64,000 nt of DNA from Chitinophagaceae bacterium. Its GTDB lineage: Bacteria > Bacteroidota > Bacteroidia > Chitinophagales > Chitinophagaceae. Of this stretch, positions 560 through 59,614 are shown piece after piece. Numbering within the stretch: the stretch's first letter is position 1; every line of letters starts with the position of its first letter. A program made the position numbers and the translations under genes. Below the pieces are notes generated by a model. The model was not told the DNA's origin, searched no databases, and saw nothing but the letters and a program-made list of their open reading frames with translations. The stretch covers positions 1-64,000 of the forward strand of contig JACCYQ010000123.1 in NCBI GenBank assembly GCA_013696395.1, written 5' to 3'.

Positions 560-781
560 ATAATAACCTGTAAGTAAAACTTATAAATATTGAATGCAAT
601 AATAACGAATAACGGCATAAACCCAATGTACACTCATAAGAAAACAGTTTGGAAAGAAGTAAAAAATTTAAAATTTAAAAGTTAAAGTCAAAAATGATAT
701 GGTGTAATAATCCTGACTGGTTAAAATGAATGAATTAGGTTTTTGCATTTACCTTTTTCATTTTGTATTTCTAATGAGCAT

Positions 782-837
782 TTTGCCTCATTGTCAAATT
801 GCCTGATTGCGTAATTGTCTAATTGCCTCATTCCTGT
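782..837. repeat. degenerate 8-bp-period intergenic array, consensus ATTGNNNN
   Basis: attgtcaa/attgcctg/attgcgta/attgtcta/attgcctc/attcctgt in perfect 8-nt phase from 790 to 837; abuts TATTTTTG at 838. Confidence 0.8.
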
Positions 838-5754: not shown

Positions 5755-7251
5755 TTAGTTGCTCAACTTTAAATGAACTCTACGGTTTTGATTTCTTTCT
5801 ACCGAAGTCTTTCCATCATTTAACGGTTTGGATGATCCATATCCTATAGCTGTTAATCTTTCCGGATCTATGTATTTAGATGTAAGGTATACTTTGACTG
5901 CATTTGCCCGCTGTTCTGACAGTTTTTGGTTTGATAATTTGTTTCCATCTGCACTAGTATGACCTTCAATAGTAAGCTTTAAAGTTTTATCCTGGTTTAA
6001 TATTGCTATTACCTCATCCAGAACCTTATAAGAAGCAGACGTCAGTTCAGCTTTATTAACCGTAAATTGTATCTGCCTGGCTGCTTTATCAACTTTCTCT
6101 GTTATTTCTTTAGCAACCGGAGGGCAACCATAATTCTCTTTAACACCAGCTACCTGCGGACAATTATCTTCTTCGTCATTTATTCCATCCTTATCACTAT
6201 CAGGAATCGGGCATCCTTTATATTTTGCTAACCCTGCGATTTCAGGACATTGATCTTCCTCATCATTTATGCCATCATTATCCGTATCTGGTATGGGGCA
6301 GCCATCGTATTTTGCCAATCCTGGTGTATCCGGGCACTTATCTTTTTCATCATTGATACCATCTTTATCTGTATCAGGAACAGGGCAACCGAGATATTTT
6401 TTAGTACCAGCTTCACCAGGGCAATTGTCATCTTTATCAGCTATTCCATCTCCATCCCGATCCGGACAGCCATTCGTAATAGAATTTCCTGGTTCATCCG
6501 GGCACGCATCATCTGTATCCGGAATACCATCTTTGTCCCTGTCTTTCGGTGCCGGAGGTAAAGGCTTTTGCCCAAGGAAAATACCTAAAGTGGCCCCAAT
6601 AACCCGGTGTCGAAAACTGCCGTCATGATCTGGGGAACGATAAAAATCGTTTAAGCCCTGGCTGGCATTTGCGGTTAGCATGACACGGCCAAATTCAAGG
6701 CCGGCCAAAGCGCCAATACCATAATTGATAACCGCATATTTGCCTTCTGCATTGCCAACAGGAAGATCTTCATTCTTATCTTCTATAAAATCTCCATTTT
6801 TATAAAATGTTTCGGTGGTTTCTTTTCCATTGTAAAAAGCGCTTAAATAGGGGCCGGCTCCAATGATGAATTTCGTTTTTGCACTTAACGGAAATTTTAC
6901 CACCAGGTTCAATGGGAGATCAACATAATTAATTAACTGGTTATAAGTAAGAGATTGAACAGGAGAGGAACTTGTATCGTTATTGAAATATTTTCTGCCT
7001 TTATTTTGAAAGATAATTCCCGGTTGAAATGAAAACCGGTCAGAACCGTTAAGGGGCAGATCTGCTATAATTCCAAAATGCCCACCCGTTCGGTTTGAAT
7101 AACCCTTTTTGAATTCATCAAAACCTGGAACATCATTCTTTTCAATGACTGTAGAAGTGTGGATGCCCCCAACCAGCGCAATACGTGCCTGGGAAAAACC
7201 GGCATAACTTAATAAAAAGGAGATAAGGAGAAAAAACAGGCACTTTTTCAT
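5755..7251 (-). CDS. outer-membrane beta-barrel protein with thrombospondin type 3 repeats and C-terminal OmpA domain
   Basis: Signal peptide, porin-like N-term, repeated DxDxDGIxDxxDxCP units, OmpA motif LTIEGHTSADGNKLSNQKLSEQRANAVKVYL. Confidence 0.92.
   Translation of the reverse strand: MKKCLFFLLISFLLSYAGFSQARIALVGGIHTSTVIEKNDVPGFDEFKKGYSNRTGGHFGIIADLPLNGSDRFSFQPGIIFQNKGRKYFNNDTSSSPVQSLTYNQLINYVDLPLNLVVKFPLSAKTKFIIGAGPYLSAFYNGKETTETFYKNGDFIEDKNEDLPVGNAEGKYAVINYGIGALAGLEFGRVMLTANASQGLNDFYRSPDHDGSFRHRVIGATLGIFLGQKPLPPAPKDRDKDGIPDTDDACPDEPGNSITNGCPDRDGDGIADKDDNCPGEAGTKKYLGCPVPDTDKDGINDEKDKCPDTPGLAKYDGCPIPDTDNDGINDEEDQCPEIAGLAKYKGCPIPDSDKDGINDEEDNCPQVAGVKENYGCPPVAKEITEKVDKAARQIQFTVNKAELTSASYKVLDEVIAILNQDKTLKLTIEGHTSADGNKLSNQKLSEQRANAVKVYLTSKYIDPERLTAIGYGSSKPLNDGKTSVERNQNRRVHLKLSN
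6130..6540 (-). repeat. internal TSP3 coding repeats
   Basis: Repeated PDTDxDGINDExDxCPxxAGLAKYxGCPIPD units in protein and DNA. Confidence 0.85.
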
Positions 7252-7401: not shown

Positions 7402-8814
7402 TTATTGATAACCCAGGGTTAAATCCACTCTTCTGTTTCTTGTAGAAGTACCTGTGGCAATAGGCTGCGATGAACCAAAGCCTTGTGTTGTAATACGTGT
7501 TTCAGCTATTCCTTTTTCAACCAGGTATGCCTTAACCACATCTGCACGGGCTTGAGTATTCTCCATATTCATATCTTCATCTCCACCTGAAACTGTATGA
7601 GCATTAACAGTTAAGCGGATGTCCGGATTTTCATTCATAATACCGACCACTTCGTCCAATGCTCTTTGAGAAGCTGCTGTAAGTGTAGTGCCTGTATTAT
7701 TTGTAAATGTAACCCTGCGGGCTGAACCGGTAACCCTTTCGCCCAGTTTAGGACTTACCTCAGGACAACCATTATTAGCTGCTGTTCCTGCCAGGCTTGG
7801 ACACCGGTCTTCTTCGTCATTTATTCCATCGTTATCGGTATCCGGGATCGGGCAACCATCATAACGTGCTAAACCGGCTACTGATGGACATTTATCCTCT
7901 TCATCATTTACACCATCACCATCAGAATCCGGAATCGGGCAGCCTTCATATTTCGCTAATCCGGGAACATCAGGACATTTATCCATTTCATCATTCACAC
8001 CATCACCATCAGAATCTGGAATCGGGCATCCATTGTATTTAGCTGTACCCGCCTGGTCTGGACACTGATCGTCTTTATCAGCAATACCATCTCCATCTCT
8101 ATCTGGGCATCCTTTGGTGAGGGCTGTACCTGGTTCATCAGGGCATTCATCTTCTTTATCAATAACCCCATCTTTATCTCTATCTCTTGGAGCTCCTCTG
8201 TTCAGGAAAAAGCCAATGGTACCGCCAAAAACGCGATGCCTGTAATCGCCCATATAACCAGTGGAACGATAAAAATCATTTAATCCCTGTGAATAATTAG
8301 CAGTTATGAAAACGCGTCCAAATTCAAATCCGGCCAAAGCGTTAAAACCATAATCAAATCCTTTGTATTGTCCTGGGCCATCGCCTTTGTCAAGATCATC
8401 GTTTTCAACTCCACCCATAACCTCCTTGCCTGAAATCATAGCCGAAACGTAGGGACCTGCGCCTAAAAGAAATTTTGTATTTCCAGTTCCCAGAGGAGCT
8501 TTAAATACAAAATTCAATGGAAGTTCCAGGTAATTTACCTTTTGCTCTTCAGGGGCAAATGTGTTTACGGCATCTGTCGTCCAACCTTTATGTACAAATT
8601 GTAAAGAGGGTTGCAGGGAAAATCTTTCAGAAAAAGGTACATCCAATAATAAACCCGCATGCAGTCCGGTGCGGCCATCAAAATTATCTTTTGGAAATGG
8701 GTCTTCTGTATTAACTCTTGAAGAATGTACCCCGCCAAGAATTGCTACTCTTGTCTGGGCTTCTGAATAAATAATAGTACTGAGTAGCACAAGTGTTAAT
8801 GCTAGTCTTTTCAT
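7402..8814 (-). CDS. outer-membrane beta-barrel/TSP3/OmpA domain protein (paralogue of 5755..7251)
   Basis: Same architecture and motifs; C-term LTVNAHTVSGGDEDMNMENTQARADVVKAYLVEKGI. Confidence 0.92.
   Translation of the reverse strand: MKRLALTLVLLSTIIYSEAQTRVAILGGVHSSRVNTEDPFPKDNFDGRTGLHAGLLLDVPFSERFSLQPSLQFVHKGWTTDAVNTFAPEEQKVNYLELPLNFVFKAPLGTGNTKFLLGAGPYVSAMISGKEVMGGVENDDLDKGDGPGQYKGFDYGFNALAGFEFGRVFITANYSQGLNDFYRSTGYMGDYRHRVFGGTIGFFLNRGAPRDRDKDGVIDKEDECPDEPGTALTKGCPDRDGDGIADKDDQCPDQAGTAKYNGCPIPDSDGDGVNDEMDKCPDVPGLAKYEGCPIPDSDGDGVNDEEDKCPSVAGLARYDGCPIPDTDNDGINDEEDRCPSLAGTAANNGCPEVSPKLGERVTGSARRVTFTNNTGTTLTAASQRALDEVVGIMNENPDIRLTVNAHTVSGGDEDMNMENTQARADVVKAYLVEKGIAETRITTQGFGSSQPIATGTSTRNRRVDLTLGYQ
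7770..8180 (-). repeat. internal TSP3 coding repeats
   Basis: Repeated CPIPDSDGDGVNDExDKCPxxxGLAxYxG units. Confidence 0.85.
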
Positions 8815-8869: not shown

Positions 8870-10393
8870 TCAGATATCAAATTTTATGCCTTGTGCTAAT
8901 GGAAGGGTAGCCCCATAATTTATAGTATTAGTCTGACGGCGCATATATGCCTTCCAGGCGTCGGAACCACTCTCTCTTCCCCCTCCGGTTTCTTTTTCGC
9001 CTCCAAAGGCGCCTCCGATTTCCGCTCCAGAAGTTCCGATGTTTACATTGGCAATTCCACAATCACTCCCAGAATGGGAAAGAAATTTCTCGGCTTCCCG
9101 CAGATTTAATGTCATAATAGCAGAAGATAAACCCTGGGGAACATCATTTTGAATGGCTATTGCCTCATCCATTGTTTTATATTTCATAATGTAAAGGATG
9201 GGAGCAAAGGTTTCTTTATGCACTATGGGATCGTTCTTATTTACTTCGGCTATGGCTGGCCTCACATAACATCCGGTTTCAAATCCGTTCCCTTTCATTA
9301 CTTCACCCGGTACTGCAAACTTTCCACCTTGTTTAATACATTCTTCAATTGCCTGTTGATACATTTTTACGGCATCCTTGTCAATTAAAGGTCCTACATG
9401 TATATCTTGATCTAACGGGTTGCCGATTATTAATTGTTTGTAAGCAGATACCAATTTATTTTTTACAGTTTCATAAACATCTTCGTGAATTATCAAACGC
9501 CGGGTTGATGTACAACGCTGGCCAGCAGTACCAACAGCCCCAAACACACAACCCAGTATGGACATTTCCAGATCCGCCTCTTTTGTTATAATAATAGCAT
9601 TATTCCCGCCCAGTTCTAATAATGATCTCCCTAACCGTGCACCAACAGCTGCGCCAACGGCTTTTCCCATACGTGTTGAGCCAGTAGCGGAAACTAAAGG
9701 AATGCGTGGATCGTTTGCTATCCATTCACCAACCTCACGCCCACCAATGATAATACACGATACACCTTCAGGCACATTGTTCCTTTTTAGAACATCAGCA
9801 ATAATATTCTGACAGGCAATGGCACAAAGGGGTGTTTTTTCTGAAGGTTTCCAAACGGCCACATTTCCACAAACCCAGGCTATCATGGCATTCCAGCTCC
9901 AGACGGCAACGGGAAAATTAAAAGCAGATATAATGGCTGTAATTCCAAGGGGATGCCATTGTTCGTACATCCGGTGACCCGGCCTTTCACTATGCATGGT
10001 TAATCCATGTAACTGGCGGGATAGTCCAACGGCAAAATCACATATGTCAATCATTTCCTGTACTTCACCATAGCCTTCCTGTAAACTTTTTCCCATTTCA
10101 TAAGAAACCAGTTTACCCAATGCCTCTTTGTTTTTTCTAAGCGCTTCACCAACCTGGCGCACAATTTCACCGCGGGCTGGTGCCGGTATATTTCTCCATT
10201 CCAAAAACGCGGATTTAGCCATGTTAATTACTTTATCATAGTTTTCTTTATTGCAGGTGCTCACGGTACCGATCAATTTTCCATCAACAGGGGAAAAAGA
10301 TTCTATCATGGAAGAGTCATCTTCAATCCATGTTAATCCCGTGCTAACTCCTTTATTTTTATCCTGTATGCCTAACGATTTTAGAAAGTCCAT
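8870..10393 (-). CDS. aldehyde dehydrogenase, ALDH7/AmaB-like
   Basis: WNAMIAWVCGNVAVWKPSEKTPL, LELGGNNAIII, GTAGQRCTSTRRLIIHE, GGGRESGSDAWKAYMRR typical of ALDH7. Confidence 0.9.
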   Translation of the reverse strand: MDFLKSLGIQDKNKGVSTGLTWIEDDSSMIESFSPVDGKLIGTVSTCNKENYDKVINMAKSAFLEWRNIPAPARGEIVRQVGEALRKNKEALGKLVSYEMGKSLQEGYGEVQEMIDICDFAVGLSRQLHGLTMHSERPGHRMYEQWHPLGITAIISAFNFPVAVWSWNAMIAWVCGNVAVWKPSEKTPLCAIACQNIIADVLKRNNVPEGVSCIIIGGREVGEWIANDPRIPLVSATGSTRMGKAVGAAVGARLGRSLLELGGNNAIIITKEADLEMSILGCVFGAVGTAGQRCTSTRRLIIHEDVYETVKNKLVSAYKQLIIGNPLDQDIHVGPLIDKDAVKMYQQAIEECIKQGGKFAVPGEVMKGNGFETGCYVRPAIAEVNKNDPIVHKETFAPILYIMKYKTMDEAIAIQNDVPQGLSSAIMTLNLREAEKFLSHSGSDCGIANVNIGTSGAEIGGAFGGEKETGGGRESGSDAWKAYMRRQTNTINYGATLPLAQGIKFDI

Positions 10394-25840: not shown

Positions 25841-25860
25841 AAATTTTTGTTTTGATATAT

Positions 25861-25915
25861 ACCTACTCTGTTTAAGGTTTTCGGTAATCCCTCCGTTTTC
25901 AGGGAACTGCCATAA
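25861..25915 (-). promoter_or_regulatory. candidate structured 5' leader of TonB receptor gene
   Basis: Minus TCCCTgaaaacggAGGGA stem-loop with an alternative CGG/CCG pairing; speculative. Confidence 0.25.
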
Positions 25916-53791: not shown

Positions 53792-55939
53792 ATGAAAAAA
53801 ATCATTGGTTTCTTTTTCTTGCTCTCAACATTATTTGTTGATGCGCAAATAAAATACCCGGATAGTAAAAAAATGGATGCCATAGATGATTATCATGGAA
53901 CCATGGTATCTGATCCGTATCGCTGGCTGGAAGATGATAATAGTGATGAAACGAAGAAATGGGTAAACAGTCAGAATGAAGTAACAGAACAATACCTGTC
54001 AACAATTCCCTACCGGATGGAAATAAAGAAGCGGTTTGAAGAACTTTGGGATTTTAAAAAATATACCGCCCCATATAAACATGGTGCGTATTATTATTTT
54101 GCCAAAAATGATGGTCTGCAAAACCAGTACGTTTATTACCGGTTGAAGAATTTAAAAGATGAGCCTGAATTATTTTTCGATCCCAATAAATTATCTGAGG
54201 ATGGAACGGCTGCTTTAAGTGTAATGAATTTTTCTAAAAATGCCAGGTACATGGCCTATTCCATTTCCCAATCCGGCAGCGACTGGCAAACTGGTTTTAT
54301 CATGGATGTAGCGACCAAAGAAAAACTGGATGATCAGTTGGATTGGTTAAAATTTACCGGTTTTAGCTGGAAGGGTGATGAAGGATTTTATTACAGTCGT
54401 TACCCGGAACCCAAAGAGCAGGATAAGCTAAAAGGCGTGAATGCAGCGCAGCAGGTTTATTATCATAAAGTTGGTACACCGCAATCCGAAGACCAATTGA
54501 TTTATGAGGATCCTGAACATCCGCAGCGTTTTGGTGGGGCCAGGCTGACAGATGATGGCCGTTTTCTCATCATTTCCACTTCCGAAGGTACCAGTGGCAG
54601 AGAGATCTGGTATAAAGACATGCAGGATGCAACCCAAAAAGATTTTCGGTTACTGATACCCGGGTTTAAAACAGAACCCTCTGTTATTGATAACAAAGGC
54701 GGGATGTTGCTGGTGTTAACAAATGATGGCGCACCAAATTTTAAAGTGGTAGCTATTGACCCAAAGAATCCTGGGAAAGAAAACTGGAAAACATTGATCC
54801 AAGAAAAAAAAGACGCATTACAAGGAGTTTCCACGGCAGGTGGATATTTGTTTGCAGGTTACCTCAAGGATGCTTCCACCCGTACTTATCAGTATGACTA
54901 TGATGGCAAATTGATCAGGGAAGTAAAATTACCAGGCATCGGCAGTGCCAGCGGATTTGGAAGTCGCAAAACGGAAGATGAACTTTTTTACACTTACTCA
55001 TCTTTTGCATATCCTGCCAGTATTTTTCATTATGATATGAAGACGGGAAAAAGCACCTTATTCAGAAAGAGTGAAGCAAAATTTGACCCCACCCAGTTTG
55101 AAACCAAACAGGTTTTTTATACCAGTAAAGATGGAACAAAGGTTCCCATGTTTATATCATACAAAAAAGGTTTAAAACTTGATGGAGAAAATCCGGTTAT
55201 GCTTTACAGTTATGGTGGATTTAATATTCCCATGACCCCCGGTTTCAATTTGCAGAATGCCTTTTTCATGGAGCAGGGTGGCATATATGCGCAACCCAGT
55301 TTAAGGGGAGGAAGCGAATATGGCGAAGAATGGCATAAGGGTGGTATGCTGGAAAATAAACAGAATGTATTTGATGATTTTATCGCCGCGGCAGAATACC
55401 TGGTAAAGGAAAAATACACCAGCAAAGATAAAATTGCAATTCGCGGTGGAAGTAATGGTGGATTATTAGTGGGTGCAGCCATGACGCAGCGGCCCGATCT
55501 TTTTAAAGTGGCTATTCCACAGGTTGGCGTATTGGATATGTTACGGTATCACCAATTCACCATCGGGTATGCCTGGGCCACTGAATATGGAAGAAGTGAT
55601 AATCCAAAAGATTTTGAGTACCTCTATAAATATTCACCTTTGCATAACCTGAGAAAAAATGTGCGTTATCCTGCTACATTAATAACTACTGCAGATCATG
55701 ATGACCGGGTGGTACCTGCGCACTCATTTAAATTTGCCGCCGCCCTGCAAGAGGTGAATAATGGAACAAGTCCAACCCTTATAAGGATTGAAAGTAAGGC
55801 CGGGCATGGCGCAGGAAAGCCAACCAGCAAACAAATTGAAGAAGCAACGGATATCTGGAGCTTCACTATGTTTAACCTGAATATGCCTTTCAAATACAAA
55901 GACAAAGTGATTCACCCCAATACTAAGAAGGCCTTTTAG
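53792..55939 (+). CDS. prolyl oligopeptidase (S9A family)
   Basis: DPYRWLEDDNSDETKKWVNSQNEVTEQYL; GGSNGGLLVGAAMTQRPDLFKVAIPQVGVLDMLRYHQFTIGYAWATEYG; DHDDRVVPAHSFKFAA. Confidence 0.96.
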   Translation: MKKIIGFFFLLSTLFVDAQIKYPDSKKMDAIDDYHGTMVSDPYRWLEDDNSDETKKWVNSQNEVTEQYLSTIPYRMEIKKRFEELWDFKKYTAPYKHGAYYYFAKNDGLQNQYVYYRLKNLKDEPELFFDPNKLSEDGTAALSVMNFSKNARYMAYSISQSGSDWQTGFIMDVATKEKLDDQLDWLKFTGFSWKGDEGFYYSRYPEPKEQDKLKGVNAAQQVYYHKVGTPQSEDQLIYEDPEHPQRFGGARLTDDGRFLIISTSEGTSGREIWYKDMQDATQKDFRLLIPGFKTEPSVIDNKGGMLLVLTNDGAPNFKVVAIDPKNPGKENWKTLIQEKKDALQGVSTAGGYLFAGYLKDASTRTYQYDYDGKLIREVKLPGIGSASGFGSRKTEDELFYTYSSFAYPASIFHYDMKTGKSTLFRKSEAKFDPTQFETKQVFYTSKDGTKVPMFISYKKGLKLDGENPVMLYSYGGFNIPMTPGFNLQNAFFMEQGGIYAQPSLRGGSEYGEEWHKGGMLENKQNVFDDFIAAAEYLVKEKYTSKDKIAIRGGSNGGLLVGAAMTQRPDLFKVAIPQVGVLDMLRYHQFTIGYAWATEYGRSDNPKDFEYLYKYSPLHNLRKNVRYPATLITTADHDDRVVPAHSFKFAAALQEVNNGTSPTLIRIESKAGHGAGKPTSKQIEEATDIWSFTMFNLNMPFKYKDKVIHPNTKKAF

Positions 55940-55940
55940 T

Positions 55941-56130
55941 TGATTGGTTGATTAATTGTTAAATCTGGAATTAGGAATTAGGAATTGGGAATTAGTTGGA
56001 TTGATTAGTGGATATACTAAGCCCTAAACTCTAAATCCTAAACATCAAAACTTTTAGAATAGTTGATTGGTTGATTAGTTGGTTGGGTTGACACGATTTC
56101 TAAACGCTAAACACAAAACATCTGAACACT
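55941..56130. repeat. intergenic block of degenerate 8-bp and 7-bp period repeats
   Basis: tgattggt/tgattaat; (ggaatta)n; taaactct/aaatccta/aacatcaa; ttgattgg/ttgattag/ttggttgg; taaacgct/aaacacaa/aacatctg. Confidence 0.75.
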
Positions 56131-56147: not shown

Positions 56148-57044
56148 ATGAAAGTTCTTGTCACTGGTGCTAATGGATTTATCGGAAATTATGTATGTGA
56201 GCAATTAGTAAAAGCGGGTTTAACGGTGATGGCTACCGGAAAAGGTGATTGTCGCCTTCTCCTCAAAAGCAACCCTTTATTCTCATACCGGTCCATGGAT
56301 TTTACAAATCCCTTTGAAGTGGATTTAGTATTTGAAGATTTCAAACCTGGTTGCGTGGTGCATGCCGGCGCCAACGGTCGCCCGGATGTTTGCGAACAGA
56401 ACCAGATGCAGGCATATATTAATAATGTAGAAGGCACTGTAACCTTACTGACCAATGCCGCAGCCCATCAAAGTTTTTTTCTTTTTATATCAACCGATTT
56501 TGTTTTTGATGGTAATGCCGGACCCTATGCAGAAGACGATCCAACGAACCCGGTAAATTATTATGGAAGAACCAAACTGGAAGCGGAAGAGGCCGTTCGG
56601 GATTATGAGCACGACTGGGCTATTGTGAGAACAGTGCTTGTATTTGGAAAACCACAGACCGGCAGGGAAAACATTCTAACCCTGGTACAAAAATCATTGC
56701 TCGCCGGCCAGGAAATAAAAATTTTTGATGATCAGTATCGTACCCCGACTTATGTAGAAGACCTGGCCGCTGCTATTGTTTCCATCATTCAAAAAAAAGC
56801 CACCGGTACATGGCATATTTCAGGCAATGAAATGGTAACACCTTACCAACTATCGGTAATGGCAGCCCGCTACCTGAACCTTGATGAATCATTGATTTGT
56901 AAAATTTATTCAGGTGATCTTGCCGAAGCGGCAAAACGACCGCACCGAACCGGTTTCATTATTGAAAAAGCGGTTAAGCATCTGGGTTATAAACCTTTGA
57001 CCCTGGAGGAGGGACTGAAAAAAACATTTTCTGGAGTTGTCTGA
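56148..57044 (+). CDS. SDR family sugar-nucleotide reductase (RmlD-like)
   Basis: ORF 56079..57044; start 56148 MKVLVTGANGFIGNYVCEQL; FISTDFVFDGNAGPYAEDDPTNPVNYYGRTKLEAEEAV. Confidence 0.9.
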   Translation: MKVLVTGANGFIGNYVCEQLVKAGLTVMATGKGDCRLLLKSNPLFSYRSMDFTNPFEVDLVFEDFKPGCVVHAGANGRPDVCEQNQMQAYINNVEGTVTLLTNAAAHQSFFLFISTDFVFDGNAGPYAEDDPTNPVNYYGRTKLEAEEAVRDYEHDWAIVRTVLVFGKPQTGRENILTLVQKSLLAGQEIKIFDDQYRTPTYVEDLAAAIVSIIQKKATGTWHISGNEMVTPYQLSVMAARYLNLDESLICKIYSGDLAEAAKRPHRTGFIIEKAVKHLGYKPLTLEEGLKKTFSGVV

Positions 57045-58022: not shown

Positions 58023-58115
58023 ACATGTTTATTGTGTGAAACCGCACCAAAAAATCTCCGGTGTGCAGGAGAAATGACATTGAAAAAGGATGCAGCAATC
58101 GTTTTTAGGCAAAAA

Positions 58116-58123
58116 CAAATGTA
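58116..58123 (-). promoter_or_regulatory. -7 box TACATTTG upstream of arginase
   Basis: Plus CAAATGTA. Confidence 0.4.
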
Positions 58124-58150
58124 GTGATTTGGGGAAAAACGCACAAATGT

Positions 58151-58322
58151 TGATTGGTTGATTTGTTGATTGGTTGATAGATTGCCAAATTAAACCCTTA
58201 GATCTAAACACTGAACTTCTTAAAAAGGAATTGGGAATTGGGCTGAATAGTTGAAAAGTTGAAAGGTTGATTGGTTGACAAACTAACCACTAAAACTTAA
58301 ACTCTAAACACTAAACAAAAGA
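58151..58322. repeat. intergenic block of degenerate 8-bp-period repeats with short 7-bp segment
   Basis: tgattggt/tgatttgt/tgattggt/tgatagat/tgccaaat/taaaccct; ttgaaaag/ttgaaagg/ttgattgg/ttgacaaa/ctaaccac/taaaactt. Confidence 0.75.
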
Positions 58323-58356
58323 AAAATGGATTAGCAGAAATCCACTAATCCATTTT
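58323..58356 (-). terminator. perfect 12-bp inverted repeat, probable terminator of usp gene
   Basis: AAAATGGATTAG-cagaaatcca-CTAATCCATTTT. Confidence 0.6.
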
Positions 58357-58370
58357 AATTATGTACTTCA

Positions 58371-58418
58371 ATTTTCAAATTCTCAAATTCTCAAATTGTT
58401 TAATTGCGTAATTGTCAA
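58371..58418. repeat. 8-bp-period array, consensus ATTNNNNA, related to 782..837
   Basis: attttcaa/attctcaa/attctcaa/attgttta/attgcgta/attgtcaa, six units in perfect phase. Confidence 0.85.
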
Positions 58419-58420
58419 AT

Positions 58421-59206
58421 TTATTCAGGTGTTGCCAATATAGGTACTGTGCTTTGGTAAACAAGCGTTTTGGTATGACTTCTTGTATACAATGAAGACA
58501 AGAAAGAATGTTTACGGGGCACCGTTATCAACATATCAATATGTTTATCTTTTACAAATTGATCAATGGCCTCATGAAAATCATTTAAACCGATAAAATA
58601 AAATTCGGGTTGAAATTCCTCGAACATCTCGTACAGATCTTCCCTTTGGCTTCTGTACTCTTCCGTCAGGGAAACATAATGAAGGCTGTCTACATTAATA
58701 ATATGGAAGGCCGGGCGAAACATTGACAGTATGGATTTGATCGGTGTAATTGGTGTAGATACCTTTACTTTTTTAAAATCTGAAGTAAGGGCCACATTTT
58801 TAATACCTGTAAATTTCGCATGGGTAGGAATAATCAGTACAGGCACCAGGTCACTGTCAACCAGTTTCAGGGTATTACTGCCCATAAACATCTTGGCCAG
58901 GGCGTGTTTACCGGTAATTCCCATAATCACCAGATTGGCTTGTCGATGGCGGACAACTCTCTCAATTTCATCAATAATATCATCGCCTTCTACAGCCACA
59001 CATTCCACCCTTAAAATGGCTTTGCCGGTTATATCTTCTTTTAATTTTGCCAATGACTCATTAGCAGCGGCGGCATGTGAGGCCCTTTCATAAACATGAT
59101 ACAGGATAACATTCACATCATGCTCGCCCTGGAGCATTTGGGCCGCAAAATGAGCGGCATTGTTGGCAGTTTCTGAAAAATCGGTTGGAATAACAATGGT
59201 TCTCAT
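58421..59206 (-). CDS. universal stress protein (tandem Usp domains)
   Basis: MRTIVIPTDFSETANNAAHFAAQML; NLVIMGITGKHALAKMFMGSNTLKLVDSDLVPVLIIPTHAKF. Confidence 0.92.
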   Translation of the reverse strand: MRTIVIPTDFSETANNAAHFAAQMLQGEHDVNVILYHVYERASHAAAANESLAKLKEDITGKAILRVECVAVEGDDIIDEIERVVRHRQANLVIMGITGKHALAKMFMGSNTLKLVDSDLVPVLIIPTHAKFTGIKNVALTSDFKKVKVSTPITPIKSILSMFRPAFHIINVDSLHYVSLTEEYRSQREDLYEMFEEFQPEFYFIGLNDFHEAIDQFVKDKHIDMLITVPRKHSFLSSLYTRSHTKTLVYQSTVPILATPE

Positions 59207-59229
59207 GTATTATTTTATTTTATAACCGC

Positions 59230-59237
59230 CAAAAATA
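59230..59237 (-). promoter_or_regulatory. -7 box TATTTTTG upstream of usp gene
   Basis: Plus CAAAAATA, 23 nt before the ATG at 59206. Confidence 0.5.
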
Positions 59238-59262
59238 GGGTAAATGGGTGAAACTTGCCTAG

Positions 59263-59345
59263 TTGAATGGTTGATAAGTTGACAGTTTGGTTGGTAAGTA
59301 TAGAATTATTAGGAATCAGGGATTAGTAATCTGGAATTAGGCATT
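59263..59345. repeat. 8-bp-period then 7-bp-period degenerate repeats
   Basis: ttgaatgg/ttgataag/ttgacagt/ttggttgg; ggaatca/gggatta/gtaatct/ggaatta. Confidence 0.65.
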
Positions 59346-59359
59346 CACAGAAATCCTAA

Positions 59360-59440
59360 AATTGTTTCAATGTCACGCTAAGCCAACCGCCCTTCAGAAT
59401 TGCGGTGGTCGAAGCCGTCAATAAAAACCCCGAAACAATT
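59360..59440. repeat. REP-like element bounded by 9-bp inverted repeats
   Basis: AATTGTTTC (59360-59368) ... GAAACAATT (59432-59440); interior tgtcacgctaagc...gcggtggtcgaagccgtca resembles GTCA..CTGAGC..GTCGAAG palindromic repeats. Confidence 0.45.
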
Positions 59441-59444
59441 AACC

Positions 59445-59500
59445 TTAAACTTTTAAACCTTTAAACCTTTAAACTTTTTAAACAACCCGTAACCCGAAAC
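59445..59500. repeat. 8-bp-period TTAAACYT array followed by 7-bp AACCCGW units
   Basis: ttaaactt/ttaaacct/ttaaacct/ttaaactt; aacccgt/aacccga/aacctta. Confidence 0.75.
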
Positions 59501-59584
59501 CTTAAACTCGCCTCCTGTGATAAATTGGTGAATAACAAACCCCTCCATAATCCGTTCGCCTTCATTATTTAAGCGCTGAAAAGA

Positions 59585-59592
59585 TATATTTG
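59585..59592 (+). promoter_or_regulatory. -7 box TATATTTG upstream of smc
   Basis: TAnnTTTG; smc GTG start at 59615. Confidence 0.55.
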
Positions 59593-59614
59593 CAACGATT
59601 AAAATCTGAAGACC

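Follow-up and report, generated by a model that had tools for sequence, protein, structure and literature searches.

The octamer array at the 3' end of a universal stress protein (usp) gene is one of a population of dispersed, mostly intergenic, degenerate tandem arrays of 7- or 8-nt units with a shared unit consensus. These arrays draw on a common unit pool, lie next to genes and turn their G-rich strand away from the coding sequence, and in a related genus they turn over rapidly. The array was found in a 64,000-nt stretch of DNA from a Chitinophagaceae bacterium (the window, i.e., the whole stretch analyzed). The genome of this bacterium (G000) is a draft of 3.43 Mb in 234 contigs with a completeness of 83.65%.

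Direct reading of positions 58371-58418 gave the units as first written, and the 8-nt phase claimed for them was confirmed by autocorrelation and TRF, which placed the periodic stretch at 58370-58421 (6.5 copies, 79% matches). The features of this locus and of the first array of the window are as follows.

58370-58421, plus strand: array of the finding, AATTTTCA AATTCTCA AATTCTCA AATTGTTT AATTGCGT AATTGTCA AATT; adjoins the stop codon of the minus-strand usp gene
58421-59206, minus strand: usp gene (Usp, PF00582, E 2.5e-23), identified by a domain match
58323-58356, minus strand: intrinsic-terminator-like hairpin (15 pairs, 4 of them G-C) with a T-rich tail, immediately past the array
783-832, plus strand: first array, TTGCCTCA TTGTCAAA TTGCCTGA TTGCGTAA TTGTCTAA TTGCCTCA; precedes a plus-strand gene whose ATG is at 857
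663-686, plus strand: tandem heptamers (AAAATTT)n; left half of the spacer that also holds the 783-832 array

As the earlier note had stated, the array lies at the 3' end of usp; the stop codon touches it. Therefore, its minus strand (TTGACAAT..) runs away from usp, and reading along the usp strand one meets the stop codon, the array, and then the terminator-like hairpin. The array may be a passive 3'-UTR segment between the stop codon and the terminator. A TAnnTTTG-like box at 838-845 is located between the 783-832 array and the ATG at 857. The window's arrays have no match in Rfam. The only Rfam match in the window is the cis-regulatory RNA DUF805b (25860-25894, minus strand), with a score barely over the gathering score. 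Tandem repeats of a different kind, with a unit of 87 bp (a multiple of three), were observed at 6157-6390 and 7811-8033 in two adjacent minus-strand genes.

The 14-mer ATTGCGTAATTGTC, reported at 806-819 and 58403-58416 on one strand, is present there and nowhere else in the 3.43-Mb assembly, and its expected count is 0.015-0.045 (Markov orders 1-5). The ATTGTCAA units said to occur in both arrays are found at 790-797 and 58411-58418. Runs of ATTG octamers, like the 14-mer, exceed the frequency expected from a Markov model; the pattern ATTGN4ATTGN4ATTG has 33 matches in the assembly, where ~2.7 are expected from the frequency of ATTG, and the reversed pattern has none. In a scan of 0.79 Mb of the genome with periods of 4-30, only 7, 8, and their multiples were strongly recurrent. 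The same two periods stood out in a scan of 1.05 Mb (periods 4-20), and an order-4 Markov sequence had no strongly recurrent period. The pattern counts and period scans uphold the proposal of a dispersed repeat family, and the reversed-pattern control, the period scan, and the Markov expectations rule out chance AT-rich sequence.

The genome contains several unit families (ATTGYCWM/AATTYTCA, GTTGATTG, TTTAAACC, CTAAACC, GGAATTA, and AAAGTTA), which often neighbor one another within a single spacer. The spacers on both sides of usp and a further one between 55939 and 56149 contain the following arrays.

58149-58178, plus strand: GTTGATTG octamer array, G-rich (spacer 58023-58420)
58227-58242, plus strand: GGAATTG heptamer repeat, G-rich (spacer 58023-58420)
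58244-58278, plus strand: GTTGAAAA/GTTGATTG octamer array, G-rich (spacer 58023-58420)
58282-58317, plus strand: ACTAAAC heptamer array, C-rich (spacer 58023-58420)
59263-59286, plus strand: G-rich array of GTTGANNN octamers, left part of spacer 59207-59614 (upstream of usp)
59441-59483, plus strand: C-rich array of TTTAAACC octamers, towards the right-hand end of spacer 59207-59614, ahead of an SMC gene
55967-55995, plus strand: GGAATTA heptamer array, G-rich, past the stop of a gene ending at 55939
56062-56091, plus strand: GTTGATTG octamer array in the same spacer as 55967-55995, followed by a CTAAAC-type stretch and an ATG at 56149

In 1.05 Mb of the genome (31% of the assembly, enriched for contigs with ATTG arrays), we counted 49 arrays of period 7 or 8, three of which lie within coding sequence. 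Elsewhere, two ATTGGTTG arrays of genome G047 (C10:5-72 and C14:8-83) are placed at the extreme ends of their contigs; therefore, arrays of this type may interrupt assemblies, and draft genomes may contain more of them than are counted.

The shared 14-mer had been taken as a sign of homologous dispersal, in which the two window arrays would be duplicates of one ancestral array. They do have the 14-mer in common and turn the same strand to the neighboring gene. However, the order of their units, which had been proposed as the check for dispersal, differs between the 806 array and the 58370-58421 array, and BLAST detected no homology between them beyond the arrays. Moreover, 60 of 231 array pairs have a 14-mer in common, compared with 47 (95% range 31-65) after units were re-dealt from the pool. 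Units of different arrays differ by 2.52 mismatches on average, and non-adjacent units within an array by 2.53. The sharing of the 14-mer therefore reflects a common unit pool and not a copied segment. On the basis of the unit-pool test and BLAST, homologous dispersal was rejected for the window's two arrays, and descent from one ancestral array is extremely improbable. Adjacent units are closer to each other (2.08 mismatches, p 0.0004 versus shuffled order).

The statement that the position of the arrays relative to genes is not fixed proved to be wrong, because the arrays abut coding sequences with a genome-wide polarity. Both window arrays lie at the right end of their own spacer, against the gene, with the same strand towards it. 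The proportion of arrays within 15 nt of a gene edge is 48% in the window's genome and 53% in the related genus of G010, whereas random placement gives 28% and 27%, respectively. When arrays no more than 40 nt from an edge are counted, the strand richer in G than in C points outward at starts by 9:2 and at stops by 11:0 in the window's genome (total 20:2), and by 15:2 and 40:5 in the G010 genus (total 55:7); arrays of one genus are not independent, and start positions are approximate because the gene edges come from a simple ORF caller. The rule was first noticed in these two sets and was next examined in 118 public contigs that had been retrieved by motif, where ORFs of 150 aa or longer gave 36:4 at starts and 34:14 at stops (total 70:18, summed over three groups). 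Non-Bacteroidota contigs showed outward G at starts (11:2), whereas their stops were evenly divided (6:6). The G-rich strand is the coding strand downstream of ORFs and the non-coding strand upstream of them. Accordingly arranged pairs are found where one spacer carries several arrays: all seven spacers with at least two arrays in the window's genome are G-rich at the left and C-rich at the right, and in the G010 genus 21 spacers have this order and one the reverse.

The best predictor of the side is G minus C, with a standardized logit of 2.1; A-T reaches 0.9 and stop codons reach 0.6. This comparison counted the 38 contigs L181-L218 together with Bacteroidota, and the count based on ORFs of 150 aa or longer keeps them apart. 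Purine content and stop codons are thus weaker candidates for the carrier of the polarity, and purine skew fails at starts in the public contigs (15:18). In the window's genome, the purine skew is 0.00-0.02 at array-free edges and 0.14-0.15 in array-bearing spacers; array-free spacer edges have no skew or a weak one. A promoter box between a start-edge array and its gene was found in 5 of 37 cases, which is not above array-free edges (80 of 465). A terminator beyond stop-edge arrays is not a rule either (4 of 11 in the window's genome and 11 of 50 in the genus).

The symmetry of the polarity bears on the possibility that the arrays are candidate transcript borders, at which G-poor, C-containing, unstructured RNA would load Rho and halt untranslated transcription. 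For such borders, starts and stops would have to share one polarity, as is observed, and this polarity is best predicted by G minus C. Read from the sequence, ATTG-YC-WM would give one YC per 8 nt on RNA entering the gene by read-through or in antisense. The usp array between the stop codon and the terminator, and the 783-832 array upstream of a promoter-like box, are also in keeping with this reading. However, the C excess of ATTGTCAA is weak (one G and one C), and a full rut site is often longer than the arrays. Array-rich genomes are also sporadic even inside one genus (among 150 genomes of the order), unlike an essential device. We consider a role as Rho-dependent borders unlikely.

Alternatively, every unit may be a putative site for a protein or an RNA-binding protein, with the degenerate consensus selected at each position. 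The variable unit positions are identical across the arrays of the genome (ATT[GCT][CT]C[AT][AC]), and ATTGCCTC-like units also occur in other genera, as would be expected of binding sites. However, unrelated families (ATTGYCWM, GTTGATTG, TTTAAACC, CTAAACC, and GGAATTA) share the same type of position and the same polarity, and there is little probability that each unit is a selected site.

The turnover of the arrays was compared among three species of the related genus (G010, G041, and G042) along a 45-kb syntenic stretch. ACTGAATA arrays have 570, 615, and 197 matches in the three species, and in this genus many of them form inverted pairs 65-260 bp apart. Orthologous spacers contain different inverted-repeat families, nested repeats, or one family with a changed copy number (for example, G010 39219, G041 1535, and G042 24077). 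Turnover is therefore fast, because the three congeners carry other arrays or other copy numbers at orthologous spacers. The inverted-repeat families observed in the syntenic spacers (L229-L282) are ACGCAGATTTTCATGA, CACGCAGATGACGCTGATT, ACTGAATA, and TTCGACAAGCTCAGCGTGAC, often nested within each other. The arms of one spacer in the G010 genus are reverse-complementary over a mean of 15-16, versus 9 by chance (p 0.0005), and among the one-mismatch matches listed, 17 of 23 arm pairs have a rare unit variant in common (7.8 expected).

These arms suggest that the arrays may be parts of small, MITE-like inverted-repeat mobile cassettes that enter spacers, and that single arrays may be decayed cassettes. 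The matched arms with their common rare variants, and the differing, nested families at orthologous spacers of the three congeners, are consistent with this. A further case is found in the window's genome, where an 873-aa DEXH helicase-like ORF (L058 8540-11161, contig C36) contains ~40 extra residues in frame. The insertion at ~9110-9240 is composed of an AAAGTTA heptamer array, two palindromes of the GTCATCCTGAGCTTGTCGAAGGA/TCATCCTGAG/TCATCCTGAGCTTGTCGAAGGA type, and a CTAAACTCTAAACTC/CTAAACTC repeat. In most aligned relatives, this site spans just 0-24 nt, and G005 has a shorter, different inverted repeat in the same loop. This composite, in-frame stretch in coding sequence looks more like insertion than slippage, and the case favors insertion as the probable origin of at least some composite stretches. 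Against mobile cassettes in general, arm complementarity was not detected in 22 spacers of the window's genome (8.8 versus 9.9, p 0.87); with their arms unmatched, the arrays of these spacers do not have terminal inverted repeats of the MITE type. The cores of same-family G010 cassettes are dissimilar by eye. Furthermore, no transposase is linked to the arrays: the window's genome has four Y1_Tnp matches, and the inspected Y1_Tnp flanks contain no octamer arrays, some of them having other palindromes. REP sequences mobilized by RAYT are thus unsupported as a source of the arrays. In L285, L289, L283, and L284, palindromes of their own (GAATCCGAAGGATTC, TTTGGCTAAAGCC, and TTGCCCGTAGGGCAA) lie on the flanks of the Y1_Tnp genes, an arrangement that resembles ordinary REP-RAYT pairs. 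Mobile cassettes are a secondary and rather unlikely explanation of the population.

We tentatively prefer, at slightly less than even probability, to regard the arrays as slippage-prone, recombining spacer repeats that are excluded from genes, with a polarity under selection at gene borders. Replication slippage would create the arrays and change their length; the likeness of adjacent units fits this prediction. Slippage alone accounts neither for a unit pool common to the whole genome nor for inverted arms with the same rare unit variant. Recombination at short homologies, or templated copying, may also carry units from one array to another, which would result in one common pool. Insertion or growth within genes would be purged by selection. 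Selection at gene borders may likewise maintain the outward polarity, since arrays whose G-rich strand enters the gene are proposed to be less well tolerated.

Several known systems resemble the arrays in part. GGGAATC heptamer arrays in Xanthomonas and GGGGA(C/T)T arrays in Nostoc are intergenic and near ORFs, and they follow the same strand rule, with convergent inverted pairs in Xanthomonas and few in Nostoc (Rehm et al. 2015, PMC4692102). Their layout (gene-edge position and strand rule) is shared by the window's genome. However, the window's arrays are AT-rich, fall into several families of 7-mers and 8-mers within one genome, and come from a different phylum, and their arms are unmatched, in contrast to the inverted pairs of Xanthomonas and to the G010 genus (p 0.0005). 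By direct reading, the minus strand of 58371-58418 (TTGACAATTACGCAAT...) contains no GG, and the array, lacking G-runs of at least three, has no canonical G-quadruplex. TAACTGA heptamers occur in Beggiatoaceae, Cyanobacteria, and five Bacteroidetes; the sets are intergenic near start codons, some overlap gene ends, and other heptamers lie close by in Bacteroidetes (MacGregor 2015, PMC4679880). That system has one motif and one main orientation towards start codons, whereas many motifs, octamers, and both gene ends are involved here; the window units are ATTG- and AATTYTCA-type octamers and not tandem TAACTGA heptamers. The octamer ACTGAATA of the G010 genus equals TAACTGA plus one base, which is a resemblance only. 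REP/REPIN elements, mobilized by RAYT (Y1_Tnp), are also short, intergenic, and of high copy number, but the arrays are not tagged hairpins and are not beside Y1_Tnp genes. BrickBuilt, a minisatellite-MITE present in 19 copies in Porphyromonas gingivalis (PMC4596501), is likewise from Bacteroidota, with tandem units within an intergenic inverted-repeat element; it differs in its 23-nt units, its fixed leader and tail, and in being a single element. We found no description of such arrays in Chitinophagaceae in the open-access literature, and a search by sequence strings gave no match.

It is conceivable, although quite improbable, that gene-edge arrays with outward G are general to spacers in several phyla, whatever their unit sequence, length, or quadruplex potential, and that they would be the product of an undescribed process; this process would recognize gene borders or the broken ends of spacers and supply both sides with strand-specific short repeats.

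The polarity rule of the quadruplex-forming heptamers of Xanthomonas and Nostoc extends to AT-rich 7/8-mers of Bacteroidota without G-tracts; therefore, quadruplex formation is unnecessary for the polarity. The three-species comparison indicates that whole spacers gain new repeat families within a genus, and this replacement makes the origin and any function of the arrays testable.
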